In this document: positions 40,469 to 48,027 of the stretch, in pieces | Layout of the letters: every line of letters starts with the position of its first letter | Numbering within the stretch: position 1 is the first letter of the stretch | Assembly: GCA_003169975.1 (NCBI GenBank) | Contig: PNAA01000049.1 | Coordinates: 57,499 to 106,208, forward strand | Direction of reading: 5' to 3' | DNA: 48,710 nt | Source of the DNA: Spartobacteria bacterium | GTDB taxonomy: Bacteria > Verrucomicrobiota > Verrucomicrobiia > Chthoniobacterales > UBA10450 | The notes under the pieces: generated by a model | Database searches by the model: none | What the model was told of the DNA's origin: nothing | What the model saw: the letters and a program-made list of their open reading frames with translations, nothing else | Translations under genes and position numbers: made by a program

Positions 40469-40739
40469 GTCCGCGGGCCCAGGAGCAATCCGGCCCGTTT
40501 CTTCGGTGATCCAATTAAAATTCTTGTCGCCGGCGCGGGCCGCGTTATGATTGCGGTCCCGAATGGAGATTCACGGCGCGCGCTTCTGAACCGGCAGCCA
40601 GGCTGGAAGTTAGCGCGACGGTGAAGACCCAAAGGATGCACAACCTAATCAGCCATTTAATTGCAGATCACCGGAACGTTCGCAGGGCCGTTTCGATTCA
40701 AGTTTCGCCGCGCCAAATATTCTTGGGCGCGGTTTTTTT
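40469..40739 (+). other. Noncoding leader region upstream of the AONS-like gene
   Basis: 271 bp with no credible open frame. It is GC-rich with several short complementary blocks (for example GGTGATCCAATTAA near 40505 and GCAGATCACCGG near 40662) and ends in a strong terminator-like hairpin right at the next start codon. I do not recognise any known riboswitch or T-box here. It may be a structured leader, but this is only a suggestion from the terminator position. Confidence 0.4.
40708..40739 (+). terminator. Rho-independent terminator abutting the next start codon (possible attenuator)
   Basis: Stem CCGCGCC / GGCGCGG closes a loop around AAATATTCTTG and is followed by seven Ts, immediately before the ATG of the following gene (40740). 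Such a terminator would end the upstream transcript. Because no space is left for a separate promoter after it, transcripts for the next gene must pass through it, as in an attenuator, or the start codon used is further downstream. Confidence 0.75.
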
Positions 40740-41993
40740 ATGAGCGATAACCCAGCCAAACTTAGCCTGAGTAATTTCCTGGCGGCCGAAGGAAAAGATC
40801 CGCTGCAAGCGCCCCCTACTTTCACCCGGTGGATGCAGGCGGGCGCATGGGCGATCGAACTTTACGAACCGGAATTGCTCTCCGCGGCCGATGCGCGGAC
40901 GACGATTACCTACGACGGAAAACCGCAGCGGGTCATCAACCTCTGCTCCTACAATTACCTCGGGCTGGCCAACCACCCGGAGGTGATCGCCGCGGCGCGC
41001 GAAGCCCTAACGACCCACGGCCTCGGCGCCTGTGGCTCGCCCATGCTCTCCGGCATGACCGATCTGCACCGCGAGCTGGAGCGCAAGGTCGCGCAATTCC
41101 TCGGCCGCGAAGACGCGATGCTTTTCAATAGTGGATTTGGCGGTGCGCTGGGGACGATTTCCGGACTGCTCCGGAAAAACGATGTCGCGGTGCTCGATAA
41201 TCGGTCGCACCTCAGCCTGCGCGACGGGGCGACTCTTTCGCGCTGCCGGGCCGAGAAATTCGAGCATAACGATCCCGCTTCGCTTGATGCGTCGTTAGGC
41301 CGGAACAAGGGAAAGCGCCAGTTGGTCGTGATTGAAGGAATTTATTCGATGGACGGCGATTTCGGAAATCTCGAGGAGCTGATCACTGTCGCGGAGTCGC
41401 ACGGCGCCAGCGTCTTCATCGACGAAGCGCATTCCACCCTGGCCTGCGGCGAGCACGGGCGCGGCGCCGCGGAAAAGTTTGGCGTCGAAGACCGCATTCC
41501 CCTGACCTACGGAACTTTTTCGAAAGCCTTCGGAGCGCTCGGCGGTTTCGTCGCCGGGTCGAGGGAGACATTGCAGTATCTCCGCTTTTACGCACACCCC
41601 TACGTTTACTCGTGCGCGCTGCCCGCGGTCGTGGTCGCGGCCATTCTGAAATCGCTCGAGATCGGCATGAGCCAGCCGCAGTTGCGCACGAAGCTCTGGG
41701 AAAACGCCGATTATTTTCATCAGCAACTCCGCGGCCTCGGGATCGATAGCGGCGCTTCCACCACCTATGTGATGCCGCTCGTGATCGGCGACCGCGAGCG
41801 CATGTACCGCCTCGGCCATGAACTGCGGAGTCGCGGGCTCTGGGTCGCGCCGGTCGATTATCCGGCGGTGCCGCAGGACCGAATTTGTTTCCGCGCCTGT
41901 GTCACCGCGCTCCATACCCGGGCGGATTTGGATGAAGCGCTCAACATTCTCGCCGACACGCTCGTGCCCAGCCTGCTGGCGCAACACGCCTGA
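40740..41993 (+). CDS. Alpha-oxoamine synthase (serine palmitoyltransferase-like)
   Basis: The 417-aa PLP enzyme belongs to the AONS family (KBL, BioF, ALAS, SPT). Motifs: NLCSYNYLGLANHPEV, GLGACGSPMLSGMTDLHREL, FNSGFGGALG, VIEGIYSMDGD, FIDEAHSTLACGEHGRG and the PLP lysine in TYGTFSKAFGALGGFVAG. AONS enzymes condense an amino acid with an acyl-CoA; SPTs make 3-ketosphinganine. Neighbouring phosphotransferase and GNAT genes favour sphingolipid synthesis over biotin or threonine use. The frame is open to ATG 40740, with no obvious ribosome-binding site and a terminator directly upstream. SPT versus KBL cannot be settled from motifs alone. Confidence 0.85.
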   Translation: MSDNPAKLSLSNFLAAEGKDPLQAPPTFTRWMQAGAWAIELYEPELLSAADARTTITYDGKPQRVINLCSYNYLGLANHPEVIAAAREALTTHGLGACGSPMLSGMTDLHRELERKVAQFLGREDAMLFNSGFGGALGTISGLLRKNDVAVLDNRSHLSLRDGATLSRCRAEKFEHNDPASLDASLGRNKGKRQLVVIEGIYSMDGDFGNLEELITVAESHGASVFIDEAHSTLACGEHGRGAAEKFGVEDRIPLTYGTFSKAFGALGGFVAGSRETLQYLRFYAHPYVYSCALPAVVVAAILKSLEIGMSQPQLRTKLWENADYFHQQLRGLGIDSGASTTYVMPLVIGDRERMYRLGHELRSRGLWVAPVDYPAVPQDRICFRACVTALHTRADLDEALNILADTLVPSLLAQHA

Positions 41994-42019
41994 GCGAGAG
42001 AGCATTCGACTCGTTAGGC

Positions 42020-42925
42020 ATGCCGGCCCAGGGGGAGAAAACGCCGGCCATTCAGGCGACCTACAAGGCGCGGGAGGTGGAGGGTTTTCTCGACCTCCAC
42101 TTCTATCGCAAAATCGGTTTTCAGCTCGCGCTCCTTTTTGCGAAGCTGAAAATGACACCCGCGCAGGTGACATGGTGCGGGGCGGCACTCGGCATCGCCG
42201 CCGGGCATCTTTATTTCTATCGCGATTTGCGACTGAACCTGCTCGGGATGGTATTGCACGTCCTCAGCAACGCGTTCGACAACGCCGATGGCCAACTGGC
42301 CCGCCTGACGAAACAGGGCAGCCGCAGCGGGCGAGCGCTTGATGGGCTGGCCGACAACCTCGTTTTCATCAGCGTCTATGCCCACCTTTGTCTGCGTTAT
42401 ACGGCCAGCGGCGGATCGCAGCTCGTCTGGCTCCTGGCGCTCGCTGCCGGGGCGAGCCATTCGCTGCAAAGCGCGGCGGCGGACTATTTTCGGAACGCCT
42501 ATCTCTATTTCGCCGATGAAAAAGGGCGCGCGGAACTGGATTCGTCCGCTGCGTTGCAGACGGAGTTTGATCGTTTACGCTGGCGGAATCAGCCTTGGAA
42601 GAAATTTCTGCTCCGGCTTTATCTTAACTACACGCGACAACAGGAATGGCTCGCACCGCGGTTGGGTGATCTCAAACGAGCCGCCGCGCGGACTAACGAC
42701 GTCTCGATCGCGGAAGCCTACCGCCAACGGAGCAAACCGTTGATCAGATGGCTGAATCTCCTCGCCACCAATCCGCGGATGATTCTGCTCTTTGCCTTGC
42801 TTCTGGCGGGCCAGCCCGTCTGGTATTTTGTCCTTGAGCTCACGCTTCTTAATCTCGTGCTCGCTTTTCTGCTGCGGGAAGAGAATGCCCTCTGCCGCCG
42901 TCTCCTCGCGAACCAGCCAACGTAA
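42020..42925 (+). CDS. CDP-alcohol phosphotransferase (inositol-phosphoceramide synthase-like)
   Basis: The 301-aa integral membrane protein has the full catalytic motif DG-x2-AR-x8-G-x3-D-x3-D (within ADGQLARL, then GRALDGLADN). The N-terminus ATYKAREVEGFLDLHFYRKI resembles, as I recall, the CDP-alcohol phosphotransferases in the inositol-lipid cluster of Bacteroides. The enzyme would move a phospho-alcohol from a CDP-activated donor to an acceptor alcohol in the membrane. It starts 26 bp after the AONS gene, and the octamer CGTTAGGC lies directly against its ATG (42012-42019). The substrate is inferred from context only. Confidence 0.82.
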   Translation: MPAQGEKTPAIQATYKAREVEGFLDLHFYRKIGFQLALLFAKLKMTPAQVTWCGAALGIAAGHLYFYRDLRLNLLGMVLHVLSNAFDNADGQLARLTKQGSRSGRALDGLADNLVFISVYAHLCLRYTASGGSQLVWLLALAAGASHSLQSAAADYFRNAYLYFADEKGRAELDSSAALQTEFDRLRWRNQPWKKFLLRLYLNYTRQQEWLAPRLGDLKRAAARTNDVSIAEAYRQRSKPLIRWLNLLATNPRMILLFALLLAGQPVWYFVLELTLLNLVLAFLLREENALCRRLLANQPT

Positions 42926-43009
42926 AAACGCCTAACGAACATCACGGAACGGATCGAAGTCGCCGAGGTCAGGCGGCACGCCGCAATCTTTGATCCCGCC
43001 CTGCACGCA

Positions 43010-43105
43010 CGTCATCTCGAGCGGAGTCGAGGGATCCCGGGGAAGTTACCTTAAAGAAAGCGCCACGGGATCCCTCGACTCCGCTGCGCTCCGCTCGGGG
43101 TGACG
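43010..43105. repeat. Palindromic interspersed repeat, GTCATCTCGAGCGGAG...GGGATCCC type
   Basis: Left arm CGTCATCTCGAGCGGAGTCG and right arm (other strand) CGTCACCCCGAGCGGAGCGC, each continuing with GAGGGATCCC, around ~25 bp (AAGTTACCTTAAAGAAAG). It is the same style as the element at 4004-4109 but with different arms, and it fills the gap between two convergent genes. Confidence 0.7.
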
Positions 43106-43118
43106 AAAATCTGCCGCG

Positions 43119-44267
43119 TTAGGCGAGCGCCTGGCTCAACCGCTTTTGGTAAACGCGAAACCGCTTGTAAAGTTCGCTTCCTAAATTCTCGTACTCGGCA
43201 CACATCAACCTGTTGCTCTCCAGCACGAGATGGCTGTCGATGAATTCGAAACCGCGCGCGAGCGCAGTCTGGGTTAATGCTTTCCCCAGCAAGACATTGA
43301 CTCCCCGGTTGCGGAATTCCTCTTTGACCGCGCCCAGCACGGCGTTGAGTTGCCTGGTTTTCCTGGCCGCCGCCAACATGTGCAGGAAACCGAACGGCAA
43401 AAGTTTCCCTCTCGCTTTTTGAATCCCCCGGCTCATGTCGGGAATGGCGACGACAAACCCGATCATTTCCTTCTGCTCATTTCGGACCAGCTTCAAAAAG
43501 GCTGGGTCGATGACCGGCAAGTACTGCGCTGCGAGGCGCCGCATTTCCGGTTCGCTCATCGGCACAAAGCCAAACAAGGGTGCGTAAGTTTCATTCACCA
43601 GACGCAAGGCCGGGATGATGTACGGCTTGATCTCCCGTTTGGTCTTGAACTCGACCAGTTCGAATTTGTGATTGCGCAGCAGGCGCTGGTAGACCTTCTC
43701 GTACAAAGCGGGATACTCTGCCCGCACGGGCAGTTTGTAGGACACGCAATCCAGTTCCTTGGTATAGCATTCGGCTTCCACCAACGCTCGCAGATAGGGC
43801 GGATTCGTCGGCGCCGCGATCACGGGCAGATGCTCGAAACCATCGATTTGGAGGCCCTGGGGATCTTTGTCCGAAAAACCAAACGGACCAATCAACCGAT
43901 CCATCCCTTTCTCGGCCGCCCATCCTTCCACGAAGCGAAGGAGGGTTTGGGCGATCACCTGTTCGTCGAGGCAATCCAGATTGAAAAAGCGCGCCGTTCT
44001 TTGCTCGGTCTGCTCGTTGTGCCGTCGATTAATGATCCCCATGATGCGGCCGACCGGTGCACCGTCCCGGCAGGCGATGACCCTGACGACTTCAGAATAA
44101 GCCAGCGCTGCGTTCGTTTTTGGGTTGTGGAACTTCCATTCATCCGCATAAATCGGCGGCACCCAGGAGGGGGAGGATTGGTAGAGCCGCTGCGGCAGAT
44201 AGATGTAGCGGCGAAGCGATTTTCTATCCGTCACTTTCAGGAGAGCGATGGATTCAGACGTATGCAA
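43119..44267 (-). CDS. GNAT-like acyltransferase, candidate bacterial ceramide synthase
   Basis: The 382-residue soluble protein (TTG at 44267 preferred; the upstream open frame to 44444 is not protein-like) starts near ALLKVTDRKSLRRYIYLPQR, then LYQSSPSWVPPIYADEW, GRIMGIINRRHNEQ, a RLIGPFGFSDKDPQGLQIDG block, and a C-terminal region with GNAT-like folding, VLGAVKEEFRNRGVNVLLGK. It resembles a Bacteroidota family of double-GNAT proteins. Bacterial ceramide synthases (bCerS) are GNAT acyltransferases too, so an N-acylation of a long-chain base is plausible. It is convergent with the phosphotransferase upstream. Start and role are uncertain. Confidence 0.6.
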   Translation of the reverse strand: MHTSESIALLKVTDRKSLRRYIYLPQRLYQSSPSWVPPIYADEWKFHNPKTNAALAYSEVVRVIACRDGAPVGRIMGIINRRHNEQTEQRTARFFNLDCLDEQVIAQTLLRFVEGWAAEKGMDRLIGPFGFSDKDPQGLQIDGFEHLPVIAAPTNPPYLRALVEAECYTKELDCVSYKLPVRAEYPALYEKVYQRLLRNHKFELVEFKTKREIKPYIIPALRLVNETYAPLFGFVPMSEPEMRRLAAQYLPVIDPAFLKLVRNEQKEMIGFVVAIPDMSRGIQKARGKLLPFGFLHMLAAARKTRQLNAVLGAVKEEFRNRGVNVLLGKALTQTALARGFEFIDSHLVLESNRLMCAEYENLGSELYKRFRVYQKRLSQALA

Positions 44268-44347
44268 GGGGTGACACTCTACATCAAAATTCCGCCGCCA
44301 ACGCACGCCTGCGCTGGCGAAATTTTTCTCCCGGACGCTTTCGCACC

Positions 44348-45493
44348 ATGCGCCAGGTCTTGATCCTGGCCGACGAATCCGCCGATTGGATCGTCGCTGG
44401 TCTGAGACAGCTCGAGCGGCTGCTGTGTGCGCTTGACGAATCACTGCGCGAGCCGGCCAAGGTGTGGGTAGTTTGGGATCCCAGGCTTTCTTCGGACCGG
44501 CGCTGGTTGCCGCGAGAACGGAACTTCACCCAGCTCGAAGTCTGCGAACTAGACGTGACCCCGGAAGATAAACTGCCCGCGGTTGAAATTGTTCTCGAGA
44601 CGCGACTCTTCCTTTATCGACAGTCCGGGGCGAGCGAATCACTACTTGCCACGATGGCGCAGGCTCGTGCCGAACGGCGAACCTACGCGCAGCATCTCGC
44701 CGCTCTGCAAATCACATGGGAGCGCTCGCGCGCGACCGACGGATGGGAGTACCTAACAGATGCCGCGCAAATTCCCGCCTGCGAAAAGCGGTTCCTGCGC
44801 GGCAGCGGCAAGTCGCAGGATGGATTGATCTCGCGTTTCATCAATCGTCCGATTTCCCGGGTGATGAGTCGCGCGCTTTTGAAAACTCCAGTTACCCCAA
44901 GCGCGTGGACGTTATCGATCTTTCTGCTCCCGCTCGCCGGCGCGGCGTTTTTGACTCGCGGCGATTACACCAGTGTGATCGTCGGGCTGCTCTTTTTCCA
45001 GCTTTACAGCATCCTCGACGGCTGCGATGGCGAGATTGCGCGCGCCAAATATATCGAGTCGCGGCGTGGCCGGCAGCTCGATACCTGGTGCGACACTCTC
45101 GGAAATCTGCTGCTGGTTGTCGGGCTCGGCTATGGCCTTTCGCGGCAAACGGCGCCGTCAACATTTTACTTTATTGAAAGTATAATCGTCGCGATTCTGA
45201 TTGTGACGAACGAGTTGCTCCTGGCCGCTCCAGCTCCGTCTCCGAAGAGAGCCGATGGCGCCCTCTACCCGCGTCATCAGCAAATGGTCGAGCGCTCGGG
45301 GCTCAATTTTCTCGGTGAACGATTCGTCTGGTGGCTGGTTCAGCTCACCAAACGCGACGTCGCGCTCCTCGCCTTCCTCTTCATCGCCTGGGCGGGCCGA
45401 CCAGCCTGGATCTTGCACCTGCTCGGCGCGGTGGCGGCGATCAGTTCGCTGCTCGCCGTTACATCATTCGCCCGCTCGAAACTCGCCCGTTAG
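44348..45493 (+). CDS. CDP-alcohol phosphotransferase with N-terminal domain (DIPP/PIP-synthase-like)
   Basis: The 381-aa membrane protein has an N-terminal soluble domain (~1-170) that looks like a degenerate nucleotidyltransferase, then FINRPISRVMSRALLKTPVT leading to the membrane domain. The catalytic motif is complete: DGEIAR, eight residues, G-x3-D-x3-D (GRQLDTWCD). The layout resembles enzymes that transfer CDP-inositol onto inositol phosphate or a diacylglycerol backbone. Its 3' end overlaps the convergent nucleotidyltransferase gene by 30 bp, and its TAG is part of the octamer CGTTAGGC. The exact alcohol cannot be read. Confidence 0.75.
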   Translation: MRQVLILADESADWIVAGLRQLERLLCALDESLREPAKVWVVWDPRLSSDRRWLPRERNFTQLEVCELDVTPEDKLPAVEIVLETRLFLYRQSGASESLLATMAQARAERRTYAQHLAALQITWERSRATDGWEYLTDAAQIPACEKRFLRGSGKSQDGLISRFINRPISRVMSRALLKTPVTPSAWTLSIFLLPLAGAAFLTRGDYTSVIVGLLFFQLYSILDGCDGEIARAKYIESRRGRQLDTWCDTLGNLLLVVGLGYGLSRQTAPSTFYFIESIIVAILIVTNELLLAAPAPSPKRADGALYPRHQQMVERSGLNFLGERFVWWLVQLTKRDVALLAFLFIAWAGRPAWILHLLGAVAAISSLLAVTSFARSKLAR

Positions 45494-46210
45494 GCGCGTC
45501 GCGGCTTCCTCCGCCTGCCCCAGCATCCCGCCGTCGTCGACGTCCTGCCACCACGCGTCCCCGATATCGATCGCGCGCGCCTTGTGGTCGGCCGCCATGG
45601 CACGGACGCCATCAGCTAGGCTGCAGTCGCCGTCGCGCCGGGCTTTGGCGAGATAACCAAAAATCTCCGGCGGACAGACAAAGATTCCGGTGTCGATCGC
45701 GTCGTAGCGGGCCAGTGTCTTTCCGATCGCGACAATGCGGTCCCCTTTGGTTTGCACCTTCATCGCATCGTCGAGATCGAAAATGGAACTGATCTTCCGG
45801 TCGATCGCGAGATTGAGTAGATCGGGATTCGCCTGCCTAACGAAAGTCTCCAGCAGCCGCGCTTCAAACAAGTGATCTCCCATCAGCAGCAAAAATGGCG
45901 TGGAGAGATGCGGCGCCGCGCAGAGAAGCGAAACCCCGTTTTGCTTTTGCCATTGAGCGTTGTGAATCGGACGCAGCCGCATCTCCTTCGGAACCAAAGG
46001 CGTCAATCCCGCGAGCAGCATTTCGCTTTCCCAGCCGACCACTGCGTGCAGCGTGGTCACGCCGACTTCGCGTAGCGCGTCGAGCGTATAGGAAATAAGC
46101 GGCCGTCCGCGGATCGGCACGAGCGCTTTGGGCAATGATTTGCCAGAAGCGCGCAGCCGCGAGCCCGTTCCGGCCATGAGAATGACTGCGTCGGTGAGCG
46201 AATTCATCAT
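45464..46210 (-). CDS. Nucleotidyltransferase, inositol-1-phosphate cytidylyltransferase-like
   Basis: The 248-aa soluble enzyme has the nucleotide-binding GTGSRLRASGKSLPKALVPI, the metal site LLLMGDHLFE and, later, IFDLDDAMKVQTKGD then DAIDTGIF. These last motifs match, as I remember, the inositol-1-phosphate cytidylyltransferases (IPCT) of archaea and Thermotogales, more than sugar-1-phosphate enzymes. It would make CDP-inositol or a similar activated alcohol for the two CDP-alcohol phosphotransferases. It is on the opposite strand to them, converging with the second by 30 bp. Confidence 0.7.
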   Translation of the reverse strand: MMNSLTDAVILMAGTGSRLRASGKSLPKALVPIRGRPLISYTLDALREVGVTTLHAVVGWESEMLLAGLTPLVPKEMRLRPIHNAQWQKQNGVSLLCAAPHLSTPFLLLMGDHLFEARLLETFVRQANPDLLNLAIDRKISSIFDLDDAMKVQTKGDRIVAIGKTLARYDAIDTGIFVCPPEIFGYLAKARRDGDCSLADGVRAMAADHKARAIDIGDAWWQDVDDGGMLGQAEEAATRLTGEFRAGE

Positions 46211-46954: not shown

Positions 46955-48027
46955 CTAATCCAGCGGACTCTTCACCCCGAGGCCCGGCTTATTGAGCACA
47001 TGGGTATAGATCATGGTTGTCGAAACATCCTTGTGCCCCAACAACTCCTGCACCGTCCGAATGTCATACCCATTCTCCAGCAAGTGCGTCGCAAACGAAT
47101 GCCGCAGCGTGTGACAGCTCGCTGGCTTGGCGATGCGCGACTTTTGCACCGCCACCTTGACGGCGTTTTGCAGATTTTTCTCGCCCACATGATGCCGACG
47201 CAGCACCGGACGACCGTCCGCCGCTGCCCCGCGCGGATCGACCGACCGCTTCTCCGCGGGAAAGACCCATTGCCGCGCCGCGCCGGGATTCTTCCGTGCA
47301 TTGGCATCGGGCAACCAGACCGTGCCAAACCCCTCCGCCAGTTCCCGCTCATGAACCGCTTGCACCCGCTCCAGATGCTCGCGCAGCGCCGGCGCCACCG
47401 TCACCGGCAGCATCGTCACCCGATCCTTGCCGCCTTTGGCATGGCGCAAAGTGATCTGCAGATAGCGGAAATCGACATCCTTGACTCGCAAACGCAGGCA
47501 TTCGAGGAGGCGCAGCCCGCTGCCGTAAAGGAGATCCGCCATGAGCCGGTATTGCCCGCCCAACTCCCGCAAGACCGCCTGCACCTCATCCCTGGCCAGC
47601 ACCACCGGCAGCTTGGGTGACGGCGCACCCGCTGGAGGCCCTCCACCACGCCCAATTTGCGTTCCAACACCACCTCGTAAAGGAAGAGCAGCGCATTGGG
47701 GGCCTGAATGGAGCAGCTAGGTGGCTGCGACATAGACTTCGCGAAGCGAAGCCCGCAGGGTTAGCTAGCCGGGAAGGCTAGCTAATCATTCTGGGTGGCT
47801 GCGGCCACTCTGCGTTCGCCCGCCAGGTAATTCAGGAACGCCGCCACCTCGGTCCCTCCCATTTCCTGCGGATGGCGTTTGCCATGGAAGAGAATAAAGC
47901 GCCGGATCCAGCCCAAATAGGCCTCCTCGGTGCGCAGGCTGTAATGGCGGGTGCGCAAAATCGTCCGCACTTGTTCGAGAAATTTAGGCTTGGCTCTTTC
48001 GCTTTTGTCGGGCAGACTCGTTGCTAT
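46955..48027 (-). pseudogene. intI: Integron-type tyrosine recombinase (IntI-like), disrupted
   Basis: Fragments of one gene on the minus strand. N-terminal: KPKFLEQVRTILRTRHYSLR then TEEAYLGWIRRFILFHGKRH, stopped at 47787 by an 81-bp insertion; middle: [18 protein letters not shown]; a single-base frameshift at ~47620; C-terminal: [12 protein letters not shown] onward to KSPLD. Catalytic residues of the C-terminal part survive (GLRLLE Arg, [17 protein letters not shown] His/Arg, LLGHKD His, TTMIYTHV Tyr). The insert between boxes with [12 protein letters not shown] and RRHHV is the extra region typical of integron integrases. The probable start codon is changed to ATA (48025-48027). The protein cannot be made full length. 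Confidence 0.85.
47707..47787. mobile_element. 81-bp palindromic insertion inside the integrase gene
   Basis: It separates CAGAAT from CAGGCC in the gene and keeps the frame (27 codons), but introduces a stop right at its left end on the gene's strand. Two hairpins: TTAGCTAGCC/GGCTAGCTAA with a GGGAA loop (47761-47785) and CTTCGCGAAG (47737-47746). A 10-bp GGTGGCTGCG occurs at 47720 and 47794, near the two ends. It resembles a miniature mobile repeat. Confidence 0.6.

Follow-up and report, generated by a model that had tools for sequence, protein, structure and literature searches.

Plants, fungi and gut Bacteroides are the better-known sources of ceramide lipids with an inositol-phosphate head group, and Candidatus Udaeobacter is regarded as among the commonest soil bacteria. 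The present analysis concerns five genes (positions 40740 to 46210) in a 48,710-nucleotide stretch of DNA (the window) from a Spartobacteria bacterium of the order Chthoniobacterales (Verrucomicrobiota; contig PNAA01000049.1). These genes are half of a locus conserved in the Chthoniobacterales family that includes Candidatus Udaeobacter, and we give a probability of about 0.7 that they encode the synthetic half of an inositol-phosphosphingolipid (inositol-phosphoceramide) pathway. Among described systems, the BT1522-BT1526 cluster of B. thetaiotaomicron encodes a PIP-DAG synthase, a PgpA-like phosphatase and an AUR1-like inositol phosphoceramide synthase (PMC8791184, PMC9246714), and a layout of NTP transferase, CDP-alcohol phosphotransferase and HAD hydrolase in Prevotella and Phocaeicola (Bacteroides) vulgatus has been proposed to act via CDP-inositol (Heaver 2022, PMC9246714). 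Caulobacter crescentus has the Spt-bCerS-CerR system (PMC11087976, PMC11324152). Spt-like genes occur in 22 Black Sea metagenome-assembled genomes of Verrucomicrobiota, for which sphingolipid potential was inferred, though not for the present locus (PMC11334938). An earlier note, made from the window sequence alone, called such a pathway little described in Verrucomicrobiota. A literature search that mostly did not extend to subscription papers turned up nothing on this cluster, on sphingolipids of Udaeobacter or on bacterial clusters of this kind with DES1/SCS7-like enzymes.

The five genes of the window are:

40740-41993, plus strand: serine palmitoyltransferase (SPT)-like alpha-oxoamine synthase, 417 amino acids (PF00155 Aminotran_1_2, BioF-KBL-SPT superfamily)
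42020-42925, plus strand: CDP-alcohol phosphotransferase A (CDPA), 301 amino acids (PF01066 CDP-OH_P_transf)
43119-44267, minus strand: GNAT acyltransferase, about 382 amino acids (weak Acetyltransf_1 match; TTG start inferred)
44348-45493, plus strand: CDP-alcohol phosphotransferase B (CDPB), 381 amino acids (CDP-OH_P_transf; ATG start at 44348)
45464-46210, minus strand: CTP:inositol-1-phosphate cytidylyltransferase-like protein (IPCT), 248 amino acids (NTP_transf_3; top NCBIfam match to the inositol-1-phosphate cytidylyltransferase model)

All five open reading frames (ORFs) are intact on inspection at these coordinates, the start of the GNAT gene being most likely the TTG at 44267 because of the length of its ortholog in a relative (L109), and the CDPB and IPCT genes overlap at their 3' ends (45464-45493). 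All five are under purifying selection, with dN/dS against relatives of 0.05 for the synthase, 0.11 for CDPA, 0.11 for GNAT, 0.17 for IPCT and 0.27 for CDPB (Nei-Gojobori-type estimates near synonymous saturation, which indicate constraint and are imprecise). The earlier note had recognized the five genes together and named their families; the ORFs are present, Pfam and NCBIfam agree, and the linkage recurs in 46 Chthoniobacterales contigs, a conservation that rules out chance proximity.

A scan of named genomes identified orthologs of the synthase at 79-92% identity on these 46 contigs, each of them named as Chthoniobacterales, Spartobacteria, Verrucomicrobia or Candidatus Udaeobacter (AEW3, L101); beyond these, matches were to other phyla and reached no more than 39% identity. 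Within 8.5 kb of the synthase on the 46 contigs, many of which are short and end inside the locus, are encoded CDPA (39/46, two of them distant homologs), a bCerS-type GNAT (36/46), an SCS7/FA2H-like hydroxylase (35/46), a DES1-like desaturase (30/46), a CDPB-type protein (30/46), IPCT (24/46), a short-chain dehydrogenase/reductase (SDR; 22/46) and a flippase (12/46). One relative (G167) has a single 18-kb block in the order DES1 - FA2H - synthase - CDPA - GNAT - CDPB - IPCT - SDR - flippase - membrane protein - LolD-like ATPase - MacB-like permease - HlyD - two TolC-like proteins - myo-inositol-phosphate synthase (MIPS), and another (G013) has a similar block with an added radical-SAM gene. 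A survey of 147 genomes from the order found the family-type synthase as 26 complete copies and one fragment in the 29 genomes of the family, and in none of the other 118, a distribution that agrees with the pathway but is confounded by common descent.

The source genome (4.47 Mb in 59 contigs, about 97% complete) carries the window on contig C30 (57499-106208), and a second contig, C54, encodes the SDR, a glycosyltransferase, a flippase, a LolD-like ATPase, MIPS and further TolC/HlyD/MacB-type proteins. In a genome of the same genus (G484) the order synthase - PF05118 hydroxylase - CDPA - GNAT - CDPB - IPCT - SDR - glycosyltransferase - flippase - LolD - MIPS is uninterrupted, and the genes are oriented as they would be if C54 followed C30. 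Since G484 holds the whole block contiguously and in matching orientations, the split between C30 and C54 is either recent or a mere assembly gap. Thus MIPS, which the earlier note had found missing, is absent from the five-gene locus but present in the genome, and lies within the block in G167, G013 and G484.

What is observed are the genes, the families to which they belong, the linkage kept among relatives and the selection on them; from these we infer every substrate, reaction and export role as follows. The synthase is predicted to condense an amino acid, likely serine, with an acyl thioester (acyl-CoA or acyl carrier protein) to a 3-keto long-chain base, which the ketosphinganine-reductase-type SDR encoded on C54 would reduce and the GNAT would N-acylate to ceramide. 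MIPS would convert glucose-6-phosphate to inositol phosphate, from which the IPCT-like enzyme would make CDP-inositol with CTP, and CDPA would transfer phospho-inositol to ceramide, giving inositol phosphoceramide directly. CDPB may perform a further or alternative phospho-head-group transfer, and transport of the lipid to the outer membrane may be the task of the flippase and of the MacB/HlyD/TolC-type ABC system encoded next to MIPS. In most relatives the pathway would also include a delta-4 desaturase (DES1-like) and an acyl hydroxylase (SCS7/FA2H-like), both encoded in the same cluster. The earlier note also missed a phosphatase, and no PgpA-like domain is present among the five proteins; none would be required, because the CDP-inositol route gives the phospho-inositol lipid directly.

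The co-clustered DES1-like and SCS7-like enzymes are the strongest independent argument that the product is a ceramide. The desaturase of the relatives has both an FA_desaturase domain and a Lipid_DES domain (PF08557, 28.7 bits against a cut-off of 23), and their hydroxylase matches yeast SCS7 with an E value of 7e-33. The likeness to eukaryotic DES1 and SCS7/FA2H is thus in the enzymes encoded beside the synthase, the differences being that these are bacterial, lie in one gene cluster and are absent from the window's own genome. In a distant member of the Verrucomicrobia (G121), a 55% identical desaturase has as its neighbors an epimerase-type reductase and a related GNAT. The DES1-like protein had no match in plasmid records and none in a PDB sequence search. 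The cluster's reductase is a KdsR-like SDR (PF00106), not an epimerase-type CerR; when the G013 protein (64-65% identical to the SDR of the source genome) was compared with 207 NCBIfam models, 3-ketodihydrosphingosine reductase was second best, aligned end to end at 162 bits against a cut-off of 400. An SDR-type reductase has been demonstrated in Bacteroides (BT_0972, PMC9278070).

The GNAT of the relatives is 37-43% identical over its full length to GNATs encoded beside SPT-like synthases in four unrelated lineages. Homologs in Streptomyces and Rubrobacter adjoin genes for an SPT-like synthase and an epimerase-type reductase; the E. coli homolog yghO is beside an SPT-like synthase gene with an acyl carrier protein and a fatty acyl-AMP ligase; and the Roseomonas mucosa homolog is within a Caulobacter-like sphingolipid locus. 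The window GNAT itself aligns with the Roseomonas SPT-cluster GNAT over about 95% of its length (30-31% identity, E values of 2e-34 to 9e-38). It is related to the bacterial ceramide synthase (bCerS/YghO) family, as the earlier note had surmised, and is predicted to be a ceramide synthase, an identity that rests on the layout of homologous loci. A PDB search with the GNAT profile returned short GNAT-core matches only. A plain acetyltransferase was rejected because reductase and SPT-like genes accompany the homologs, and PG1348, considered as a ceramide synthase candidate, is a sphingoid-base kinase. In common with C. crescentus, whose layout matches the Roseomonas and E. coli loci, the cluster has an SPT-type synthase and an N-acyltransferase; it differs in its SDR and its head-group genes, and an acyl carrier protein and acyl-ACP synthetase were not seen at the cluster. 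In other Chthoniobacterales families a synthase - GNAT pair occurs, followed in one genome (G281) by an epimerase-type CerR-like gene, and the canonical Spt-GNAT-CerR trio is present in another family of the order (L151).

Of the head-group enzymes, IPCT has as its three best PDB matches the Archaeoglobus fulgidus IPCT (2xme, 4mnd) and its Thermotoga maritima homolog (4jd0), and shares the motif IGKxLxxYDxxDTGxFV with solved inositol-1-phosphate cytidylyltransferases. Its best match found outside the Verrucomicrobia, in Sphingomonas parapaucimobilis, adjoins genes for inositol-3-phosphate synthase and a CDP-alcohol phosphotransferase; no match was found in viral contigs. It is predicted to be the source of CDP-inositol. 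CDPA is 32-42% identical over its full length to the CDP-alcohol phosphotransferases of Bacteroidota clusters with an NTP transferase and a HAD hydrolase, two of which also encode inositol-3-phosphate synthase, and is predicted to transfer phospho-inositol from CDP-inositol to ceramide (or diacylglycerol). The catalytic motif DxxDGxxAR...GxxxDxxxD is intact in CDPA and CDPB, and in CDPB is invariant across 8 homologs. CDPB has a predicted alpha/beta cytidylyltransferase-like N-terminal domain, degenerate and lacking the nucleotide-binding motif, followed by an intact phosphotransferase domain. Its top NCBIfam match, over the phosphotransferase part, is the bifunctional IPCT/DIPPS model, and the best Foldseek matches of its structural model (mean pLDDT 65, moderate) are AF2299, IPCT-DIPPS 4mnd and PIP synthases. 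CDPB is predicted to be a second phospho-head-group transferase, and that it performs a second phospho-inositol transfer is a guess. The archaeal and Thermotoga IPCT-DIPPS enzymes of di-myo-inositol phosphate synthesis thus share the IPCT fold and motif and resemble CDPB, but in the window the genes are separate, the CDPB N-terminal domain has lost its nucleotide-binding motif, and lipid genes adjoin. Neither phosphotransferase groups with ordinary PgsA or PssA, to which there are weak matches only; that assignment was rejected, in keeping with the earlier note.

Bacteroides had been offered as the parallel, and the nearest arrangement is indeed in the Bacteroidota, being the CDP-inositol-type cluster of Prevotella and Phocaeicola rather than BT1522-BT1526. 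With the former the window shares the CDPA family, a cytidylyltransferase-like nucleotidyltransferase, a predicted CDP-inositol route and, in its relatives, a nearby MIPS. It differs from that cluster in the subfamily of its nucleotidyltransferase (about 20% identity), in having no HAD hydrolase visible in the locus, in the placement of MIPS on C54, and in the joining of head-group genes with SPT-like, ceramide synthase and, in relatives, ceramide-modifying genes. With BT1522-BT1526 it has in common MIPS and a CDP-alcohol phosphotransferase directed toward inositol phosphoceramide, but no AUR1-like or PgpA-like domain is found among the five locus proteins (the rest of the genome was not searched for them). 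In other respects the proposal of a sphingolipid and inositol-phosphate head-group locus is supported by the gene context in the 46 relatives, most of them with DES1-like and SCS7-like genes, and by the MIPS gene in the block of sister genomes. The locus is well supported as a sphingolipid locus, and its product is probably inositol-headed.

Several observations weigh against this reading, some of them on the head group. A domain search of the five proteins found no AUR1-like or HAD protein. IPCT scores 112 of 580 bits, below the equivalog cut-off of a model that also spans a fused DIPPS domain absent here; because IPCT and both phosphotransferases are far below equivalog cut-offs, the assignment to inositol, as against another polyol phosphate, is an inference. 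A sphingolipid with a different head, formed by transfer of another CDP-activated polyol or amino-alcohol phosphate to ceramide, would account for these scores, and also for the variety of CDPB types in relatives (identity down to 21-28%), which suggests head-group variety; nucleotidyltransferases in Caulobacter serve a phosphoglycerate head group (PMC11324152). Such a head is unlikely, if not negligibly so, since the nucleotidyltransferase finds its best matches, both by structure and in NCBIfam, among inositol-1-phosphate cytidylyltransferases with a motif in common, the CDPA family occurs in Bacteroidota clusters with MIPS, and three sister genomes carry MIPS within the block, the gene being present in 27 of the 29 family genomes (9 of the 118 others of the order), an enrichment confounded by common descent.

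The synthase is the next point of difficulty. It scores no more than 309 bits with the curated SPT models, whose cut-offs of 500-670 it does not pass, and slightly more with BioF (336 bits) and gly_Cac_T_rel (332 bits). In a tree rebuilt without the sequences that had given the first one very long branches, its family forms a deep clade of its own outside the 13 canonical SPTs (support 98/97), on the KBL side of them. These results would favor a KBL/BioF-like or other aminoketone synthase whose neighbors serve an inositol glycerophospholipid or a soluble inositol phosphodiester, with no ceramide made. That is very unlikely: the family is far from KBL and falls outside both the KBL and the BioF clades, a union with the SPTs was not rejected when constrained (AU test, p 0.09), and the closest PDB matches are Sphingobacterium SPT (3a2b/8guh, 261 bits), followed by KBL (240 bits). 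The PLP-lysine motif is GTFSK as in SPTs (GTFSKAFGALGGF in all family members), where KBL has GTLGK. An ordinary BioF or KBL was rejected because the source genome carries separate KBL-like and BioF-like paralogs (37% and 33% identical to the synthase), and relatives keep the synthase beside bCerS-type GNAT, DES1-like and SCS7-like enzymes that would have no obvious role without ceramide. We therefore read the synthase as an independent SPT-like lineage; the SPT-like assignment of the earlier note stands as to the motif and the exclusion from the KBL and BioF clades, falls short as to the model cut-offs, and meets a tree that sets the family outside the canonical SPTs without rejecting a union with them.

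The source genome itself departs from its relatives. A genome search found neither a DES1 ortholog (best match 25% identity) nor a PF05118 gene or an SCS7-like FA_hydroxylase, so it is the relatives, and not this genome, that are marked by desaturation and hydroxylation of the chain. The window GNAT also differs from that kept by the relatives (28% identity). It groups, together with the L109 ortholog, with Bacteroidota and Chloroflexota GNATs (100/100), so that the acyltransferase, still of the same superfamily, has been swapped and not lost. That the cluster is decaying here and may no longer make the lipid, as the two contigs, the foreign GNAT and a truncated integrase-like ORF next to the break might suggest, is most improbable given that the remaining ORFs are all intact with dN/dS of 0.05-0.27, that a Bacteroidota-like GNAT adjoins the synthase in L109 too, and that the contig break may be an assembly gap only.

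For an inositol phosphoceramide pathway in the family as a whole, the fullest proposal is a tentative one, to which we give somewhat less than an even chance: that Candidatus Udaeobacter and its relatives, an abundant, uncultivated soil family, make eukaryote-like, delta-4-desaturated and 2-hydroxylated inositol phosphoceramides. A single cluster would then encode an SPT lineage that evolved independently, a KdsR-type reductase, an inositol phosphoceramide synthase that depends directly on CDP-inositol, and dedicated export machinery. Should inositol phosphoceramides be made in the family, bacteria may account for part of the soil sphingolipids that are usually attributed to plants and fungi, and sphingolipid biomarkers would need revision. 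With enzymes resembling DES1 and SCS7, a bacterial ceramide synthase and a CDP-inositol route in one bacterial block, the cluster is a compact experimental system that makes the origin of ceramide-modifying enzymes and phosphatase-free inositol phosphoceramide synthesis directly testable.

A GC-rich, terminator-like hairpin with seven T (about 40698-40738) lies directly 5' of the synthase ATG, which has no visible Shine-Dalgarno sequence; the hairpin is not conserved in relatives. Near the contig end (48710), between the IPCT gene and the site where relatives carry the SDR, is an integron-integrase-like ORF (46955-47605, minus strand; TIGR02249 above cut-off) that matches model positions 101-313 only, its N-terminal third apparently absent; a simple repeat search found no obvious attC array near it. 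In G484 a gene of the PF05118 aspartyl/asparaginyl beta-hydroxylase family (L089:11274-12020) lies between the synthase and CDPA, where others have an SCS7-like hydroxylase upstream, and is possibly a non-homologous replacement of the acyl-chain hydroxylase. Extra or diverged CDPB-type proteins are encoded beside radical-SAM genes in relatives L101, L105, L126 and L157-L158, which suggests head-group diversification. In another verrucomicrobial lineage (G132, L028:240-3476) there is a Bacteroidota-like cluster of NTP transferase - hypothetical protein - CDP-alcohol phosphotransferase - HAD. In G121, which belongs to another class of the phylum, the bCerS-family GNAT (related to the cluster GNAT, with one in-frame TAG detected in the genome search), the epimerase-type reductase and the DES1-like desaturase are adjacent (L062:12111-15047) in a transposase-rich region. 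A plasmid of Streptomyces sp. NBC_01001 (L067:7766-12292) encodes an alpha-oxoamine synthase, a bCerS-family GNAT and an NAD-dependent epimerase, followed by a condensation-domain protein, and this is possibly a locus for a ceramide-like natural product.

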